DNA from: Loigolactobacillus iwatensis
GTDB taxonomy: Bacteria > Bacillota > Bacilli > Lactobacillales > Lactobacillaceae
Reading direction: 5' to 3'
Assembly: GCF_003950295.1 (NCBI RefSeq)
Contig: NZ_RHNP01000012.1
Coordinates: forward strand, 1 to 64,000
DNA length: 64,000 nucleotides
The notes under the pieces were generated by a model. The model was not told where the DNA came from and did not search any database. It saw nothing but the letters and a program-made list of their open reading frames with translations. The position numbers and the translations under genes are program-made. This document shows, piece after piece, positions 4,763 to 33,123 of this stretch (positions within the stretch are counted from its first letter, which is position 1; each line of letters starts with the position of its first letter).

Positions 4763-4808
4763 AAAATAGAGTTAGGGCAAAATAAACATTTTGCCCTAAC
4801 TCTATTTT
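4763..4808. terminator. Bidirectional terminator between purB and pcrA
   Basis: A perfect 20-bp inverted repeat with a 6-base loop (arms 4763-4782 and 4789-4808, core AGAGTTAGGGCAAAA). The A/T-rich outer arms give U-rich tails in both directions. On the minus strand it would end the purB transcript. Confidence 0.85.
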
Positions 4809-26087: not shown

Positions 26088-27002
26088 TTACATAACGTGT
26101 AATACGTGTAATACAACACCAACAACGAATAAGCCAAGAATAATGATGATTGGTGAAACTTTCTTCTTCAATAACCACATGCATAAGAAGGTTAAGAGTA
26201 ATCCAGCTAAACCTGGAATTAAAAGATCTAAGTTATCTTGCAATGTTGTTACTTTGAACTTATCTAAAGATAAACCAGCAGCTTGCTGTGTCAAAGCTTC
26301 TTTGATCCCAGCAGAACCCTTTGGCAATGTAGCCCAATCAATAAAGGCACCTTTAGACTGTTGAATCTTCGAAACAACAGGTGTGAACTTAACAACAACC
26401 CAACGGTTAATTAATGACCCTAAGATAAACATACCAAGAATGGTAGCACCTTTAGTGACATCTTGTAATAAACCACCAGATAAATCTTCAGAAATTGCAG
26501 AACCTGCTTTGTAACCAAATTCTTGTGTATACCACATGAAGCCCATCCGAATTAAATTCCAAAAAACGAAATAGATGATTGGTCCCATAATGTTACCGCC
26601 CATTGCTAGAGAAGCAGCAAGAGCACCTAAGATTGGCTTAACCGTGAACCAGAATACTGGATCGCCGACACCAGCCAATGGACCCATCATACCTACTTTT
26701 ACACCTTGGATAGCAACGTCATCAATTGGGGCACCATTAGCACGTTCTTCTTCAAGTGCCATTGTTACACCAATAATTGGTGAAGCTAAGTATGGATGTG
26801 TATTAAAGAATTCCAAATGCCGCTTTAAAGCAGCGGAACGATCTTCTTTTGTCTTATATAACTTTTTAATAACTGGAATTAATGTATAGCACCAGCCACC
26901 ATTTTGCATACGTTCATAGTTCCAAGAACCTTGAATGAAGGTTGAACGCCACCAAACATTGATACGATCTCTTTTGGTTAAAGTAATTTTATTATCTGCC
27001 AT
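26088..27002 (-). CDS. manN: PTS mannose-family EIID subunit
   Basis: EIID works with EIIC as the sugar channel of mannose-class phosphotransferase systems. The 304 residues start with a cytoplasmic part (MQNGGWCYTLIPVIKKLY) and VGMMGPLAGVGDPVFWF, and end in several membrane segments. An SD (AGGGAG) is present. It is the last gene of the IIA-IIB-IIAB-IIC-IID operon and stands about 20 bases from the IIC stop. The sugar is likely mannose/glucose or a similar hexose, by family and by its ManR-type regulator, but not proven. Confidence 0.95.
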   Translation of the reverse strand: MADNKITLTKRDRINVWWRSTFIQGSWNYERMQNGGWCYTLIPVIKKLYKTKEDRSAALKRHLEFFNTHPYLASPIIGVTMALEEERANGAPIDDVAIQGVKVGMMGPLAGVGDPVFWFTVKPILGALAASLAMGGNIMGPIIYFVFWNLIRMGFMWYTQEFGYKAGSAISEDLSGGLLQDVTKGATILGMFILGSLINRWVVVKFTPVVSKIQQSKGAFIDWATLPKGSAGIKEALTQQAAGLSLDKFKVTTLQDNLDLLIPGLAGLLLTFLCMWLLKKKVSPIIIILGLFVVGVVLHVLHVM

Positions 27003-27021
27003 TTTCTGTACGCTCCCTTCA

Positions 27022-27840
27022 CTAATAATTATCTATGACATCGCCGAGTGGGTCACCAGAACCAGATCCACCACCGTTATCGTTTCCTTTACCTGAGCCA
27101 CCCATTTTAGAAAGTGTCAAGTAAATGAGTGCCATTGAAACACCAATAGCACCAAGACCAATCAAAGTTAAGTCTTGAACGGTTCCTAATACGAAGCCAA
27201 TGGCGAAGAATGGCCATACTTCAGCAGTAGCCATCATGTTGATAACCATTGCGTACCCAACGGCAACAACCATACCACCACCAATGGATAAGCCTTCAGT
27301 TAACCAAGTAGGCATAGCGCTAAGCAAGCTTCTTACAGGGCCAGCACCAACTGCTAAGATTAAAGCAGCAGGAATAGCGATTCGGATACCTTGCATACAG
27401 ATAGCGATAATATGCCAAGTTTCAATGCCTCTAAAACTACCTTTTTCAGCATAACGATCCATGATATGAACAATAGCAGTTGCAACAGTCCGAGCAAGAA
27501 TTGTTAATAATAGTCCTGCTACGGCAAGTGGTACGGCAATGGCAATGGCAGATGATACACCAGCTTTGCCTTGACCACCTAAAACTAAAATAATTGCGGA
27601 TGCAACACCGGCTAAGGCAGCATCAGGTGCAACAGCGGCACCAACGTTAGCCCAGCCTAAAGCGATCATTTGTAACGTCCCACCTAAAATTAAGCAAGGA
27701 ACTAAATCCCCGGTTACTAGGCCGATTAACGTACAAGAGATAACTGGTTGGTGAAAATGGAATTCATCCAAGACACCTTCCATACCAGCTAAAAATGCAA
27801 CGAAAACAACCAGTATCATTTGAATAGCGTTTAAATTCAT
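27022..27840 (-). CDS. manM: PTS mannose-family EIIC subunit
   Basis: The 272-residue membrane component, with about seven hydrophobic segments, including GTLQMIALGWANVGAAVAPDAALAGVAS near residues 54-80, a typical EIIC-Man stretch. The C-terminal 20 residues are glycine-rich (GGSGKGNDNGGGSGSG), a low-complexity cytoplasmic tail. GGAGG precedes the ATG. It lies 39 bases after the IIAB gene. Confidence 0.95.
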   Translation of the reverse strand: MNLNAIQMILVVFVAFLAGMEGVLDEFHFHQPVISCTLIGLVTGDLVPCLILGGTLQMIALGWANVGAAVAPDAALAGVASAIILVLGGQGKAGVSSAIAIAVPLAVAGLLLTILARTVATAIVHIMDRYAEKGSFRGIETWHIIAICMQGIRIAIPAALILAVGAGPVRSLLSAMPTWLTEGLSIGGGMVVAVGYAMVINMMATAEVWPFFAIGFVLGTVQDLTLIGLGAIGVSMALIYLTLSKMGGSGKGNDNGGGSGSGDPLGDVIDNY

Positions 27841-27879
27841 GGTAATTAATCCTCCGTTTCCTTCAAGTATTTACTAAAA

Positions 27880-28851
27880 CTAAGCCTGTTGTTTCAATTG
27901 GTCTTCGGCTTTTTTGAGGATAGCATCCATGTTTTCCCCATTATCACCGGGAACCTTTCGGACATCAAATTTGACGCCGTCGGCTTTGAGTTTAGCAAAA
28001 GTATCAATATCGTTTTGGTCAAAAGCTAAAACTTTATTTGGTTGTACTTTACCAACTGAATGAGCCATTGAGCCAACGTTAAGTGTCTCGATTGGAACAC
28101 CGCCCTCAATAACCCGTAAGGCATCTTGTGGTGTTTCAAAAAGAAGGAGCGCACGTTGACCACCGAAATGCTTATCATCCTTGGCAATCTTGATCATTTG
28201 TGAAATTGGAATAACGTGAGCCTTAACACCAACTGGTGCGGCCTGTTGAATTAAGTTCTTCCGTAAATCATCCTTAGCAACAGAATCTGAAACAACGATG
28301 ATCCGCGTTGGTTGAACTGATTTAGTCCAAGCCGTTGCAATTTGACCATGAAGTAAACGTGAATCAATCCGTGAAAGCACGTATTTCATTGATCCAGGCT
28401 TACCGGCACTAGCACCTGCATCAGCTGCCTTGGCTGCTGGAGCCTTAGGCGCTAATTCTTCTGGCCGGATCTTAACCCCATCTTTACCTGAAGCTAAAAT
28501 GTGTGCCGCAATTTTGTGTGCTGAATCCATTGACATTCGTGAACCATACGCCTCAAGCAACATTGGCAAGTTTAGACCAGTTACGATCGCCCACTTGTCC
28601 TTATGCTCCTCAAACAAATTGTTTGTTTGATTGAACGGCGTACCGCCCCAAAGATCGACTAAGAACAACACTTCATCTTGATTATCGAAAGATGAAACTG
28701 CATCTTCCAATTTTGCCTTAATGTCATCAGGGCCTTCGCTTGGCATCAACGTAACAGCTTTAACGTTTTCTTGTTCCCCGAAAATCATAGTTCCGGATTG
28801 CAAGATACCTTCGGCGAATTTACCATGACTAGCAATGATAATTCCTACCAT
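27880..28851 (-). CDS. manL: PTS mannose-family EIIAB fusion
   Basis: A cytoplasmic phosphotransferase of 323 residues. The N-terminal EIIA domain has the phosphorylated His in [13 protein letters not shown] (residue 10). An alanine/proline-rich hinge (about 134-155, [19 protein letters not shown]) joins an EIIB domain with [16 protein letters not shown], whose His takes the phosphate and passes it to sugar. The start is ATG 28851, 6 bases after GGGAGGT. An upstream in-frame ATG lies inside the SD. Separate IIA and IIB genes precede it in the same operon. Confidence 0.96.
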
Positions 28852-28980
28852 CTTTTTACCTCCCATTACAATAAAATATTATGAATAAGTGCAGAGTAGC
28901 TATCCAACTACCCAACCAACAGGAAAACCTGTCAATTTATTGTTTAAAATGAAGATCAGGCACTAAATCTGAACCTTCAA

Positions 28981-29484
28981 TTAGAAACCATTTTTTGTGA
29001 GCAGATCGCCTAAATTTTGCTTACGATCTGCCGGAACCTTCTGGGCAAAAACGTCTAAATCCGCTTCGTTATGTAAATAACGTAGTGCATCAGCTTGTTT
29101 CTGACCAACAGCAACTGAGTTGGTAATCAACTTCATTCCGTCCAAGAAAACTAAACTACCAATGTTAATTCCAACGTGACTAAGATCAATGCCGCCCTTG
29201 ACTAAACGCACCATGTCTTCAACAGTTTCCGTTAATAGCAAAACCTTGAAGTCATCGAACAAGGGATCCTGATAAATCCGAATCATCTTATCAATTGTAA
29301 TGACACTTGTTCGAACACTTGGTGGTGCAGCTTGTACTAGTAGGGTCTTACGTAATTTATCCTTTGCCACGTTATCGGAAACAATCAAAATGCGATTAGG
29401 TGTCACACTTCTAGTCCATACAGTAGCAACTTGGCCGTGAAGCAAGCGACTATCGACACGTGCTAAACAAATGTCCATTGTCAC
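28981..29484 (-). CDS. PTS mannose-family EIIB subunit, separate
   Basis: A 167-residue free EIIB domain with the phosphoacceptor motif [20 protein letters not shown] (His17). It resembles the C-terminal half of the neighbouring EIIAB. It starts at GTG (29484), 10 bases after AAGGA; a later ATG (29478) has a longer spacing. It lies 25 bases after the separate IIA gene. The two may form an additional phosphate input to the same IIC-IID pair, or a regulatory input. Confidence 0.92.
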   Translation of the reverse strand: MTMDICLARVDSRLLHGQVATVWTRSVTPNRILIVSDNVAKDKLRKTLLVQAAPPSVRTSVITIDKMIRIYQDPLFDDFKVLLLTETVEDMVRLVKGGIDLSHVGINIGSLVFLDGMKLITNSVAVGQKQADALRYLHNEADLDVFAQKVPADRKQNLGDLLTKNGF

Positions 29485-29509
29485 GATAATTAGATCCTTT
29501 CAGCATTAG

Positions 29510-29914
29510 TTACTCCTGAAATATGGCTAAATCTAAGTGTTTAACCCCCGCCCTAGCAGTCTCTTCAAGGTGTGTAACAACTACATCAAGCGGCTTGTCC
29601 CGAACGGTATACGCTTCCAAAAGCATCGGTAAATTCACCCCGGTAACTAAAGCGTAACGATCCAAATCTTCAGCAACAATCCGACTTGCAGTATTAAACG
29701 GTGACCCGCCAAACAAATCAACCAAGAAAAGAATTTGATCATTGACACCAAATGACTCAATCGCAGTTTGAAATTTATCCATTAACTCATCTGGACCCTC
29801 ATCAGGCATAAAAGTAATGGCTTTGACTAAATCTTGTTTACCAAAAATCATTTGGGACGATTGCAAAATTCCTTCAGAAAATCTGCCGTGGCTGGCAATA
29901 ATAATTGCTAACAC
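29510..29914 (-). CDS. PTS mannose-family EIIA subunit, separate
   Basis: First gene of the operon, 134 residues. It carries the EIIA His in AIIIASHGRFSEGI (residue 9) and the LVDLFGGSPFN motif. I start it at GTG 29914 because AGGAGGT ends 6 bases before it and the protein then aligns with the EIIA domain of EIIAB. Upstream in-frame codons lie within the SD. The -24/-12 promoter at 30031 reads directly into it. Confidence 0.92.
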   Translation of the reverse strand: MLAIIIASHGRFSEGILQSSQMIFGKQDLVKAITFMPDEGPDELMDKFQTAIESFGVNDQILFLVDLFGGSPFNTASRIVAEDLDRYALVTGVNLPMLLEAYTVRDKPLDVVVTHLEETARAGVKHLDLAIFQE

Positions 29915-30030
29915 TGTTTCACCTCCTGGAGAACGTCCCAAACGGACCGATCAAAGTCCCCTTAAAACTATTTGCGCCGAACTTCAATTAAATTAAAGTT
30001 GGTTTAAATCAGTCGTACACCTTTCTATAA

Positions 30031-30046
30031 AGCAAATACCGTGCCA
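30031..30046 (-). promoter_or_regulatory. Sigma-54 (-24/-12) promoter of the PTS operon
   Basis: The minus strand reads TGGCAC, five bases, TTGCT (complement of 30041-30046 and 30031-30035), a perfect match to the RpoN consensus TGGCAC-N5-TTGC. It is followed at 117 bases by the first PTS gene. The manR product, an AAA+ sigma-54 activator encoded next door, is the natural activator. The rpoN gene is not in the window. Confidence 0.93.
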
Positions 30047-30101
30047 ACTTTTGTGTATTAGCTATAAATCGCTGTTTAGCGGGTATTTACGGCCATAAAA
30101 A

Positions 30102-30139
30102 AATGTATCAATACACTAGCACCTAGTGTATTGATACAT
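30102..30139 (-). terminator. manR terminator, possible ManR enhancer
   Basis: A perfect 17-bp inverted repeat, ATGTATCAATACACTAG/CTAGTGTATTGATACAT with a 3-base loop, followed by seven T on the minus strand, 11 bases after the manR stop. Each arm contains the octamer TAGTGTAT, also found on both sides of the manR promoter. It lies 56-93 bases upstream of the -24 element, a suitable position for an enhancer. Confidence 0.85.
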
Positions 30140-30149
30140 TAATAAAAAT

Positions 30150-33008
30150 TTAAGAAGCGTATTTTTCAGTTTGTGTATCGAATAATTGCTCAATATAGTA
30201 AGTTTCAGCATCATTTAGCGAAAGCTGTAATTTACTCTGTAACAATTGGTTGGCCTTTTGAATACTGTCATAGTACGGCGACTGGTTTACTGTTGCCAGT
30301 TCGTGATCGTCAACTGAAATCGGATCCCGCAGTAGCGCACGTTCAATTGCGCCGGCAACATGTAAAATTAAACCAATTCTAAACGTATTGGTAAACGAAA
30401 CGGCTAATTCACCGCTCACTGTATCCGTATAAGACCAAAGAACATCAATTAATTTATGCGGATTAATGTACATAAAGTAGTCGCGCATGTATTCCTCACA
30501 CAGTTCCTTAGTTAAACTAGGACTAGATTTTTGAATATTTTTTGTGTCCAATCCATCAATAACCTGATCAAAGAAGTCTTCCCCGTCACCTTGCAATAAT
30601 TTTTCTAAGGAAATATACGGAACGTTCAAATTAGGTTTAACAATTCCCGTAGTTGCAATTATCTGGTATTTTTGGCTGAGGTTAAAGATGGTTTGGTTCA
30701 TATTAACTACCGAGATTGGTATCACAGTAATATCATCGTCTAACCGCTGAGCCAATTTTTTATCGAGCATCTGCTTGATCTTAACGGCAGTTCCTTCACC
30801 CGTTGAGCAAATCGCAATAATTCCCTTAGGCAAATTGGCAAGTGGTTCCTTGCTGTGTTGCGTGAACATTTCCGCATTCGGCAACGTCTCGGCGTTAACC
30901 TTGGAATAGCCGCCAAATTCCTTTAATTCCTGGTAAATAGCCGCTAAATCGTTATCGATCATCTCGGTTTTGCGAACAGCTTCTAAAATCATCGCCGTTG
31001 TCACCATATCAACCGTTTTGACCTCAATTCCGGTTTCATCAAATAACTGCTGGGAAAAAGTCGACAACGAACCCATATCCACTAACAATAAAACACCGTT
31101 ACCTTGATCAACTTGACGAACCTTTTTAACGATGCCGCCATAAGCTACCTTAGGGCTCATCTCAACTGGCATGTCGTAGGCAGCAATATTGTCTGGTGAC
31201 AATAATTTGGCCACGACCTCCACCATTGAGCTGGCTGTACTACTACCATGGGCCGCAACTACGACGCCAACTTTACCAGCGACTTGATCAGATTTTAAAG
31301 AGGCAAGTAAAATCGTGATGTAATAGACTTCTGACTGGGGAATTGGTACTTGGTAATGGTCCTCTAAATCTTTTTTGATCAACCCAGCTGCATCCAATTC
31401 TTGCGGGTAATCCGCCACCATTTCTTTTAGATCGTCGCTAATACTACGAATCACTTTTCCCGACTGAACCCGCTTAACAAAGGAGGAAATATGCAAACTA
31501 ACCGCGTACACAAAATTTTGCTTAAAAGTGTAACCCAACATGTCTTGCACCTTTAGTTGAACTTGCTTCGTAAAATCAATAATATCATTATCAACAATAT
31601 CAGCTAATTTATCATCTTCCGGTGCATCTAAATCGCTTTTTCTATAAAATGACTTCAAATGAATATTGATATCCGTCGTAATAAAATTATTGATGTGCTC
31701 CTGGTCAAGTCCCTCTGACTTTAAAATGGCCGCCTTACTACCAATAATTTCGTAAAGATTATAGGGTAGCTCATAGGCATCTTCCTTGACTAAAGCAGTT
31801 GCTTCTTCCGGCGCAACAGTCATGTAGGGCTCAAGCAATTTGGTGACCTCGCCCAATTCATCCCGATCTGACGCAAGGGCCGCAATCCCCGTCTTAATGT
31901 TATCTGGCAAATCTTCCGAAGTAATCACAATTTCATCCTGTGACTGCATATTTTTCAAAAAGCCCTTGGCACATACCAACTGAATGTTTGACTTTAATTG
32001 GCCCACGTTTCCGTAAGTAACGCTGCCCAATAATGCCTTGACCACATCTTCGGATAACCGAATCTGCTTATGAATCCGGTTGGCCTCTAATGAAAACAAC
32101 GCGCGCAGCAAGGCTAACCGCTCATTGGCCGGCCGCGTATTAAACGTTGGTAACTGAATGAGAATCGGAATTCGGCGGACAAAGGTTGCTAACAGACTAC
32201 TCTCAGGGTTTTCAGTCGTCGCGCACACTAAACGAACGTCGGCGTGATGCGTTTTTGCAGTTTCACCTAATCGACTGTAAGTTCCGTGATCCATAAAATA
32301 AAAGATCATTTCCTGACCTTCTGGTGGCAATCGGTGAACTTCATCGAGAAAGAGCATGCCACCATTTGCTTCCTGAATGAGGCCATCCTTGTCTTCGTTA
32401 GCACCAGTAAAAGAACCCTTGGTATAGCCGAACAGATGTGACATCAATAACTCAGGGTTATGAGCGTAATCCGCGCAATTAAAAGTAATCAACGGTTGGT
32501 TCTTATCAATAATGTGGTGAATTTGCGAAAATTGGTACATCCCATTGGCAAAAAAAGTTTTACCAGAACCAGTTGGCCCAACAATTAATGTATTTAACCC
32601 TTTAGGCGGATAAAGCATAGCCGCCTTGGCCTGTTCCACTTGGTTCTTTAGACTTCCATTTGCCCCAATCATTTTATCGAAGAAATCAGTTTTACTAACT
32701 GAGAAAGTATTGGTCACTTGCGTGGGTTGTGCCGGCATCGCGGTAACCGGATCGGCTGTTTTACGAATGATTGCATCAGGTTGAACCAAAAATTTGGCCG
32801 GTAAATAGCGCACTGGCCGGCCCGCAAGCTTTTGCAATTTTCCAGAACGAACCAAGTCATTTAGCGCCTTCGAAACATTTGGCCGCACAATTTCTAAGGC
32901 CGCCGCAACTGATTTAGTGGTTGGTCCCGCACCTTGTTCGATCGCAGCGGCTGTTAGTTGCTTAGTATCATCTAAAACGTAATCATAAATCCGCTCAACA
33001 CGCCTCAT
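30150..33008 (-). CDS. manR: LevR/ManR-family sigma-54 activator with PRD and PTS domains
   Basis: A 952-residue activator of mannose-class PTS operons. In order: an N-terminal winged helix (about 1-70), an AAA+ domain with Walker A GPTGSGKT (144-151), the sigma-54 contact loop as GSFTGA (198-203) and Walker B LFLDE (219-223), PRD1 (about 475-575, His506), an EIIA-Man-like domain with AAHGSS (His587), an EIIB-Gat-like domain with CSTGEGT (Cys734) and PRD2 (about 840-945, His883). PTS phosphorylation of these residues is expected to set activity. I start it at ATG 33008 (MRRVERIYDYV), 7 bases after AGGGGG. The GAFTGA loop has Ser in place of Ala, a common tolerated variant. Confidence 0.95.
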   Translation of the reverse strand: MRRVERIYDYVLDDTKQLTAAAIEQGAGPTTKSVAAALEIVRPNVSKALNDLVRSGKLQKLAGRPVRYLPAKFLVQPDAIIRKTADPVTAMPAQPTQVTNTFSVSKTDFFDKMIGANGSLKNQVEQAKAAMLYPPKGLNTLIVGPTGSGKTFFANGMYQFSQIHHIIDKNQPLITFNCADYAHNPELLMSHLFGYTKGSFTGANEDKDGLIQEANGGMLFLDEVHRLPPEGQEMIFYFMDHGTYSRLGETAKTHHADVRLVCATTENPESSLLATFVRRIPILIQLPTFNTRPANERLALLRALFSLEANRIHKQIRLSEDVVKALLGSVTYGNVGQLKSNIQLVCAKGFLKNMQSQDEIVITSEDLPDNIKTGIAALASDRDELGEVTKLLEPYMTVAPEEATALVKEDAYELPYNLYEIIGSKAAILKSEGLDQEHINNFITTDINIHLKSFYRKSDLDAPEDDKLADIVDNDIIDFTKQVQLKVQDMLGYTFKQNFVYAVSLHISSFVKRVQSGKVIRSISDDLKEMVADYPQELDAAGLIKKDLEDHYQVPIPQSEVYYITILLASLKSDQVAGKVGVVVAAHGSSTASSMVEVVAKLLSPDNIAAYDMPVEMSPKVAYGGIVKKVRQVDQGNGVLLLVDMGSLSTFSQQLFDETGIEVKTVDMVTTAMILEAVRKTEMIDNDLAAIYQELKEFGGYSKVNAETLPNAEMFTQHSKEPLANLPKGIIAICSTGEGTAVKIKQMLDKKLAQRLDDDITVIPISVVNMNQTIFNLSQKYQIIATTGIVKPNLNVPYISLEKLLQGDGEDFFDQVIDGLDTKNIQKSSPSLTKELCEEYMRDYFMYINPHKLIDVLWSYTDTVSGELAVSFTNTFRIGLILHVAGAIERALLRDPISVDDHELATVNQSPYYDSIQKANQLLQSKLQLSLNDAETYYIEQLFDTQTEKYAS

Positions 33009-33047
33009 CTGCTTACCCCCTTCAAAATCCCCGTCCAATCCAACTAC

Positions 33048-33123
33048 TAGTGTATCAAATAAAAGATCCTGGCACTATTATAATAGTAATTATAAACCGC
33101 TGTCAATTTACATTAGTGTATCA
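33048..33123 (-). promoter_or_regulatory. manR promoter flanked by TAGTGTATCA motifs
   Basis: Minus-strand TTGACA (complement of 33101-33106), an 18-base spacer and TATAAT (complement of 33077-33082) form a consensus housekeeping promoter. The decamer TAGTGTATCA (plus-strand reading) occurs at 33048-33057 and 33114-33123, one on each side. Its first eight bases also form the arms of the hairpin at 30102. This suggests one regulator, probably ManR itself, binds at both places. Confidence 0.7.

Follow-up and report, generated by a model that had tools for sequence, protein, structure and literature searches.

Where does the activator of a sigma54-dependent operon bind when the space between the activator's own gene and the operon holds a terminator hairpin? 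The question is raised by 64,000 nucleotides (nt) of Loigolactobacillus iwatensis DNA (contig NZ_RHNP01000012.1, positions 1 to 64,000, the whole of which is called the window here), in which manR, the gene of a LevR/ManR-type sigma54 activator, is adjoined by a sigma54-driven operon, the man operon. A palindrome lies between the two. The original prediction for this locus, made from its sequence, held that the palindrome ends manR and at the same time serves as an enhancer. We consider it probable that the palindrome is indeed a dual DNA/RNA element, a ManR enhancer and the manR terminator, and the comparison of related sequences indicates that the terminator hairpin is very probably also the enhancer of the man operon.

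Palindrome and promoter sites in the window

The hairpin was located by inspection of the sequence, a terminator scan and folding at 30102-30140 on the minus strand, where an inverted pair of predicted ManR sites coincides with the predicted manR terminator. Its two arms (30123-30140 and 30102-30119) are 18 bp each and enclose a 3-nt loop (30120-30122), and the whole covers positions 55-93 bp upstream, counted from the first T of the -24 box. The palindrome had been described with arms of 17 bp at 56-93 bases upstream, so that the element itself stands while its arms are in fact longer by a base pair. A T-run (U-tract) of seven T was found by sequence and terminator scan at 30097-30103 (minus strand); read on the manR strand it runs from 30103 down to 30097, and its first two bases (30103-30102) lie within the stem. 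The fold of the hairpin RNA has an energy of -23.1 kcal/mol (z = -6.4 versus shuffles). The anatomy of an intrinsic terminator, a stable hairpin with a U-tract directly after it, is present, and the claim that the palindrome is the manR terminator agrees with all of these predicted features.

The octamer TAGTGTAT occurs in both hairpin arms, as had been claimed, at 30124-30131 (plus strand) and 30111-30118 (minus strand). All of the sites named originally were recovered, and two further copies had been overlooked. One is a predicted promoter-proximal ManR half-site, ATACAC (30053-30058, minus strand), which lies 6 nt ahead of the TGGC of the -24 box and forms the core of a copy, ATACACAAAAG, that abuts TTGGCAC. 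The other is a predicted distal ManR site, GATACACA (30172-30179, minus strand), within the 3' end of manR and approximately 125 bp upstream of the -24 box. The perfect -24/-12 promoter of the man operon is present as described, with a pattern match to the perfect box, TTGGCACGGTATTTGCT, at 30031-30047 (minus strand); it is one of three matches in the genome to TTGGCAYN5TTGCW.

The anatomy alone would also suit a palindrome that is the manR terminator only, with the octamer there by coincidence and the enhancer elsewhere, for example in the proximal and distal sites alone. The terminator is perfect in its anatomy, and the octamer is about as frequent in the window as chance would have it (5 copies seen versus 3.4 expected). 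In the whole genome, TAGTGTATCA, the form of the site found beside the manR promoter, occurs 6 times versus 5 for the reversed-pattern control, and three of the remaining four genomic copies are within long open frames. Octamer counting in the window or the genome was dropped as evidence because the counts are near chance, which leaves the comparison across species as decisive. A copy of TAGTGTATCA outside long open frames elsewhere in this genome (L005, contig C64, 3726-3735) is a possible further ManR site.

Conservation of the hairpin among related loci

For the comparison, a ManR protein search supplied 28 of its 30 loci, among them that of the window but not L035 and L036, which are partial matches, and a contig scan supplied 67 of 80 named loci. 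The 13 named loci that were excluded (L087, L088, L096, L098, L100, L102, L104-L108, L113 and L116) include several that a contig end truncates or whose lineage was already represented. After removal of five loci from duplicate genomes (L038, L064, L069, L095 and L097), the final set consisted of 65 near and 25 distant loci, where near includes a few Sporolactobacillus and Listeria-type loci; the genome set includes 8 genomes of the genus Loigolactobacillus. A sigma54 box lies within 450 bp after manR in 58 of the 65 near loci, although that of L033 was recognized only by a looser pattern. The near loci are mutually related, and all counts given below are uncorrected for relatedness and do not represent independent events.

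Three rules of increasing width were applied to the box-bearing near loci. The strict rule, under which ATACAC and GTGTAT must be inverted and separated by a loop of 0-24, found the inverted pair in 34/58 loci; the second rule, which permits T or C at one position and asks for at least two outer stem pairs, found it in 37/58 (0.02 in shuffles). The widest rule, a GATACACT-type core in both arms between manR and the box, was set after the exceptions had been viewed and was then applied to all loci; it was satisfied by 45/58 (mean of shuffles 0.01). None of the seven near loci that were counted as lacking a sigma54 box has a motif hairpin. Two of these, L049 and L050, stop at a contig end, and without them the comparison becomes 45/58 versus 0/5 (p = 0.001). 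The motif is present in most of the related loci examined, whereas the original prediction had named its absence in front of related man operons as the result that would speak against it. The extent of the motif had been misjudged: the unit that recurs is GATACACT (AGTGTATC), not TAGTGTAT.

Hairpins were also collected without regard to the motif. Among the terminator-like hairpins found in this way in the named near loci, 16 of the 20 in the gap after manR carry the motif in both arms. Outside that gap, with the 200 bp upstream of manR omitted, the count in these loci is 3 of 68. All three are the hairpin of manR itself, at loci where it reaches over the stop codon (L046, and L103 on both strands), which leaves 0/65 otherwise. 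These counts, the tie of the motif hairpin to the sigma54 box, and the occurrence of the pair at man operons with no manR just upstream, which is described below, argue against a palindrome that is a terminator and nothing else. Some relatives, such as L009 and L068, do have a motif-free hairpin and separate sites, as that reading would expect, and we hold it to be quite improbable.

The opposite reading is that the pair is a ManR enhancer only, that the hairpin is a by-product which does not terminate manR, and that manR and man are in part transcribed together. A pair of inverted sites can fold without further help, and a hairpin could arise in this way. Against this, a T-run (at least 5 T in 8) is present in 43/45 motif hairpins. 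When the two ends of the 34 strict hairpins are compared, the 3' T-run proves stronger than the 5' A-run (p = 9e-5). The stems reach well past the motif: the 34 strict hairpins have a mean of 5.85 outer stem pairs versus 1.08 when arms are re-paired among species, and the highest of 2000 such re-pairings gave 2.41. The flanks outside the core vary among species while they stay complementary, and positions 2-8 outside the core hold only 0.1-0.9 bits (19 arms). In terms of the core itself, the information content was discarded as evidence, because the hairpins behind it had been selected for holding the core. An enhancer pair whose hairpin has no role in termination is, on these grounds, unlikely, even though several loci are in keeping with it: L014 has the inverted pair and no T-run, L037 and L039 have almost no gap (9 nt between manR and the operon), and a palindrome at the locus L150, discussed below, has no same-strand gene found directly upstream.

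An order-wide scan with the pattern ATACACTN{2,14}AGTGTAT matched 129 of 395 genomes. By hand count, family f3 was matched in 49/70 genomes versus 7/70 for the reversed control, and family f4 in 9/70 versus 13/70; family f4 is one genus, and none of the 3 of its genomes covered by the ManR protein search gave a ManR match. In 13 of 30 scan loci the pair lies no more than 80 bp from a sigma54 box. One of the thirteen (L153) is the site after the manR of L020 and was not counted again, and the other twelve were read closely. In L152 the pair lies downstream of a gene that appears by eye to be PRD-like, and the remaining eleven are man operons without manR directly upstream, so that the motif extends to operons that manR does not adjoin; in two of these genomes (G045 and G058) manR is more than 70 kb distant. 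The arrangement in the eleven operons resembles that of the window, with the pair some 74-78 bp upstream of the sigma54 box, one more site at about -125 and another against the -24 box. In ten of the eleven, 7 or all of the first 8 flank positions are paired. When L138 is set aside, the differences between operons, which are not independent, keep the stem pair in 164 cases and break it in 9. L149 and L150 differ by two double (compensated) base-pair changes in a long perfect palindrome around the ManR pair.

Several observations weigh against a dual element, in addition to the relatedness of the loci and the late setting of the widest rule. Because the strict-rule hairpins, and those of the information-content and wobble counts, were picked for the core, its conservation in them is partly by construction. 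Motif hairpins are absent or below the cut in 13 of the 58 box-bearing near loci (L009, L013, L014, L025, L032, L033, L034, L037, L039, L040, L068, L076 and L112), and in four of these (L009, L032, L033 and L068) the hairpin lacks the motif core and sites stand elsewhere, which indicates that the fusion of terminator and enhancer is common and not obligatory. In the distant Firmicutes, the hairpin pair was found in only 2/18 loci. Changes that give G-U wobbles do not significantly exceed those that give A-C mismatches (9 versus 5, p = 0.42), so that no strand-specific sign of selection at the level of RNA is seen in this test, a result that would also suit an enhancer without a terminator. Among the man operons that manR does not adjoin, L138 has only 3 of 8 flank positions paired and still retains the pair, and when it is included in a symmetric count the pairwise differences, again not independent, become 181 kept and 58 broken. 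The palindrome of L150 (1486-1533) has no same-strand gene found directly upstream and is therefore not explained by termination. In 17 of the 30 scan loci no sigma54 box was found within 400 bp of the pair, which means that the pair occurs at other places too. The exceptions in which enhancer and terminator are uncoupled do, on the other hand, support the existence of two functions.

The hairpin can also extend into manR. It overlaps or touches the manR stop codon in L046, L021 and L103, and the TGA stop of manR is itself within the motif (TGATACAC/TGACACAC) in 9/65 loci.

Probable assignment of the motif to ManR

Paralogues of ManR provided the control for specificity. From 84 sigma54-like matches, 58 were read as loci, and the 18 with a neighbouring LevR-type paralogue, from 12 genomes of the order, were used. 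Neither ATACACT nor AGTGTAT was found within 200 bp of any of these 18 sigma54 boxes, and the proximal site is absent at all 18 paralogue promoters. A general upstream extension of sigma54 promoters was rejected as the source of the proximal site for this reason. The motif also changes together with the protein. In 72 loci with at least two sites, with ties taken as C-type and relatedness uncorrected, GACACACT (C-type) is at least as frequent as GATACACT in 8/9 loci whose ManR has LRSN at the start of its predicted recognition helix versus 2/63 others (p = 3e-8); without the three ties the counts are 7/8 versus 0/61.

The part of ManR concerned was modelled. For residues 1-100, AlphaFold2 predicts a winged helix (mean predicted local distance difference test score 84.7) with helices at 20-24, 31-38 and 42-54 and strands at 58-61 and 67-70. 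Helix 42-54 is in the position of a recognition helix, residues 42-44 start it, and we infer from the model that it is the recognition helix of ManR. The best Foldseek matches to the N-terminal model are mostly winged-helix domains, none of which reaches an E of 0.001.

The absence at paralogues and the covariation with the helix tie the motif to ManR itself, and GATACACT is very probably ManR's binding site. The motif could instead belong to another regulator that shares these promoters, a repressor or a catabolite factor. Sites before manR and against the -24 box would also suit a repressor, and the 17 scan loci with the inverted pair and no nearby sigma54 box would be expected for such a protein. 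The empty promoters of all 18 paralogues and the T/C change of the motif with the ManR helix signature both speak against it, and this possibility appears highly improbable. The conserved upstream sites are specific to the cognate activator, being present as a hairpin in 45 of the 58 loci and at none of the 18 paralogue promoters, and the same contrast supports the originally proposed terminator that doubles as an enhancer.

With ManR as the binding protein, the dual element could work as follows. As DNA, the two arms would be inverted GATACACT-type ManR sites and the main upstream activating sequence (UAS) of the sigma54-dependent man operon, acting alongside the distal site within the manR 3' end and the half-site fused to the -24 box, and activation would proceed through the AAA+ ring of bound ManR. 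As RNA, the palindrome transcribed from manR would fold, the U-tract would follow, and manR transcription would end before polymerase meets the man promoter. A polymerase finishing manR would cross the enhancer just before stopping, and manR transcription may disturb, and be disturbed by, occupancy of the enhancer. Sigma54 enhancer sites and intrinsic terminators are usually annotated apart, and in many of the sampled loci one palindrome appears to be both. It offers a testable case in which the end of a regulator gene is coupled with the start of its target.

By eye, hairpins after paralogue genes (L164, L200, L204, L194 and L157) hold inverted copies of motifs that differ from that of ManR, such as AGTGTGTA..TACACACT and GAGTGTTT..GAGACACTC. 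Paralogue hairpins with an inverted motif of their own suggest that the principle may be general. A broader proposal is that the LevR-type activators generally use their own enhancer sites to form the terminator that ends their own gene, with paralogue-specific motifs and a near-fixed half-site at the -24 box, so that the activator is docked beside the sigma54 polymerase and not only at a distant enhancer, and activator transcription is coupled to enhancer occupancy; we put this forward tentatively, as somewhat less than an even prospect. In genome annotation, it may be possible to read the activator's own motif from the terminator hairpin that follows a LevR-type gene.

Proximal half-site, likely autoregulation and known systems

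The proximal half-site is more widely conserved than the hairpin. Two forms were counted as a proximal site before the -24 box: ATACAC, or a sequence much like it, that ends 5 or 6 nt ahead of TGGC, and GTGTRT, which lies mostly at 2 or 11-12 nt. Such a site was found in 50/58 near loci and in 14/18 distant Firmicute loci (2.0 and 0.36 in shuffles), and six of the near copies lie at other distances. A half-site in a nearly fixed position suggests a close contact between the activator and the sigma54 polymerase, beyond what standard looping models require.

Predicted ManR sites also surround the promoter of manR. This promoter is of the sigma70 type, TTGACA-18-TATAAT (33077-33106, minus strand), with 12 of 12 matches. 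One predicted site, TAGTGTATCA (TGATACACTA on the manR strand), lies just upstream of the -35 at 33114-33123 (plus strand), and the other, also TAGTGTATCA, lies downstream of the -10 in the 5' leader of manR at 33048-33057 (plus strand), so that the promoter is flanked on both sides, as had been pointed out originally. The close relative L008 has a predicted site at the same position of the manR leader as 33048-33057. Among the near loci, ATACACT or AGTGTAT is found within 180 bp before manR in 40/65 (1.88 in shuffles), and at least two sites are found in 21/65 (0.04 in shuffles). In the window, as well as in several species of Enterococcus judged by eye, the manR promoter region has sites on both sides. 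The proposed autoregulation of manR is likely from these counts. In terms of its direction, sites that flank a promoter fit repression or a roadblock, and ManR bound at its own sites around the sigma70 promoter would most likely exert negative autoregulation.

The manR gene (30150-33008, minus strand) was assigned from Pfam domains and encodes 952 amino acids. The order of domains is an N-terminal winged helix, an AAA+ sigma54-interaction domain (PF00158, E = 5e-42), two PRDs (PF00874, in two stretches) and an EIIA-Man domain (PF03610). The closest ManR, at 99% identity, is from an L. backii genome, and manR itself is the only match to the protein within its own genome. Its activator loop, of the GAFTGA type, reads GSFTGA in the translation, which is the A-to-S change that the portions available from PMC3162934 ascribe to LevR of the Bacilli.

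The man operon (26088-29941, minus strand) was read from open reading frames, and from their translations we take its genes to encode the EIIA, EIIB, fused EIIAB, EIIC and EIID components of a mannose-family phosphotransferase system (PTS). The mannose PTS is the receptor of class IIa bacteriocins. The comparison supplies a predicted ManR site for this important sugar uptake system, where the passages available from the literature name none.

The system is of a known kind, the LevR-type sigma54 enhancer, and its main enhancer very probably doubles as the intrinsic terminator of the activator's gene. LevR and the levanase operon of Bacillus subtilis resemble the locus described here: the activator combines an N-terminal DNA-binding domain, AAA+, PRDs and an EIIA domain, and the mannose-family PTS operon has a sigma54 promoter. 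The UAS to which LevR binds is at -125 according to PMC10864463; the passages available from that paper, unlike our reading of the window, do not mention a terminator role for it. CelR of Bacillus thuringiensis, likewise of the LevR type, has several copies of its UAS ahead of a sigma54 operon, UAS1-3 before celA, which were tested by mutation according to the passages available (PMC10864463). The word 'terminator' occurs nowhere in that paper. In Enterococcus faecalis, a ManR/MptR-type gene lies directly upstream of a sigma54 mannose PTS operon, mpt, in a similar arrangement, and mptR and rpoN are needed for growth on mannose; the available passages hold no MptR site and no 'terminator', and term the UAS of LpoR 'as-yet-unidentified' (PMC8262876). 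In sigma54 regulons of the Clostridiales, UAS motifs were assigned to activator groups that include LevR, which resembles the assignment made here; in the portions available, 'terminator' has no occurrences and PRD-type motifs are referred to an earlier paper (PMC6615313). The literature searched, in which few subscription papers were covered and only parts of some sources were available, gave no account of a sigma54 activator whose enhancer is a terminator hairpin, nor of such a motif for ManR; the motif may nevertheless be in print.

Activator sites between an enhancer and a sigma54 promoter are also known from the NtrC 'governor' sites at glnA. To our knowledge, these have no fixed register next to the -24 box and are not part of a terminator.

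At 4763-4808, the window also contains a perfect inverted repeat with arms of 21 bp and A and T runs at its ends. It is the longest in the window (loops up to 20) and resembles a two-way terminator.

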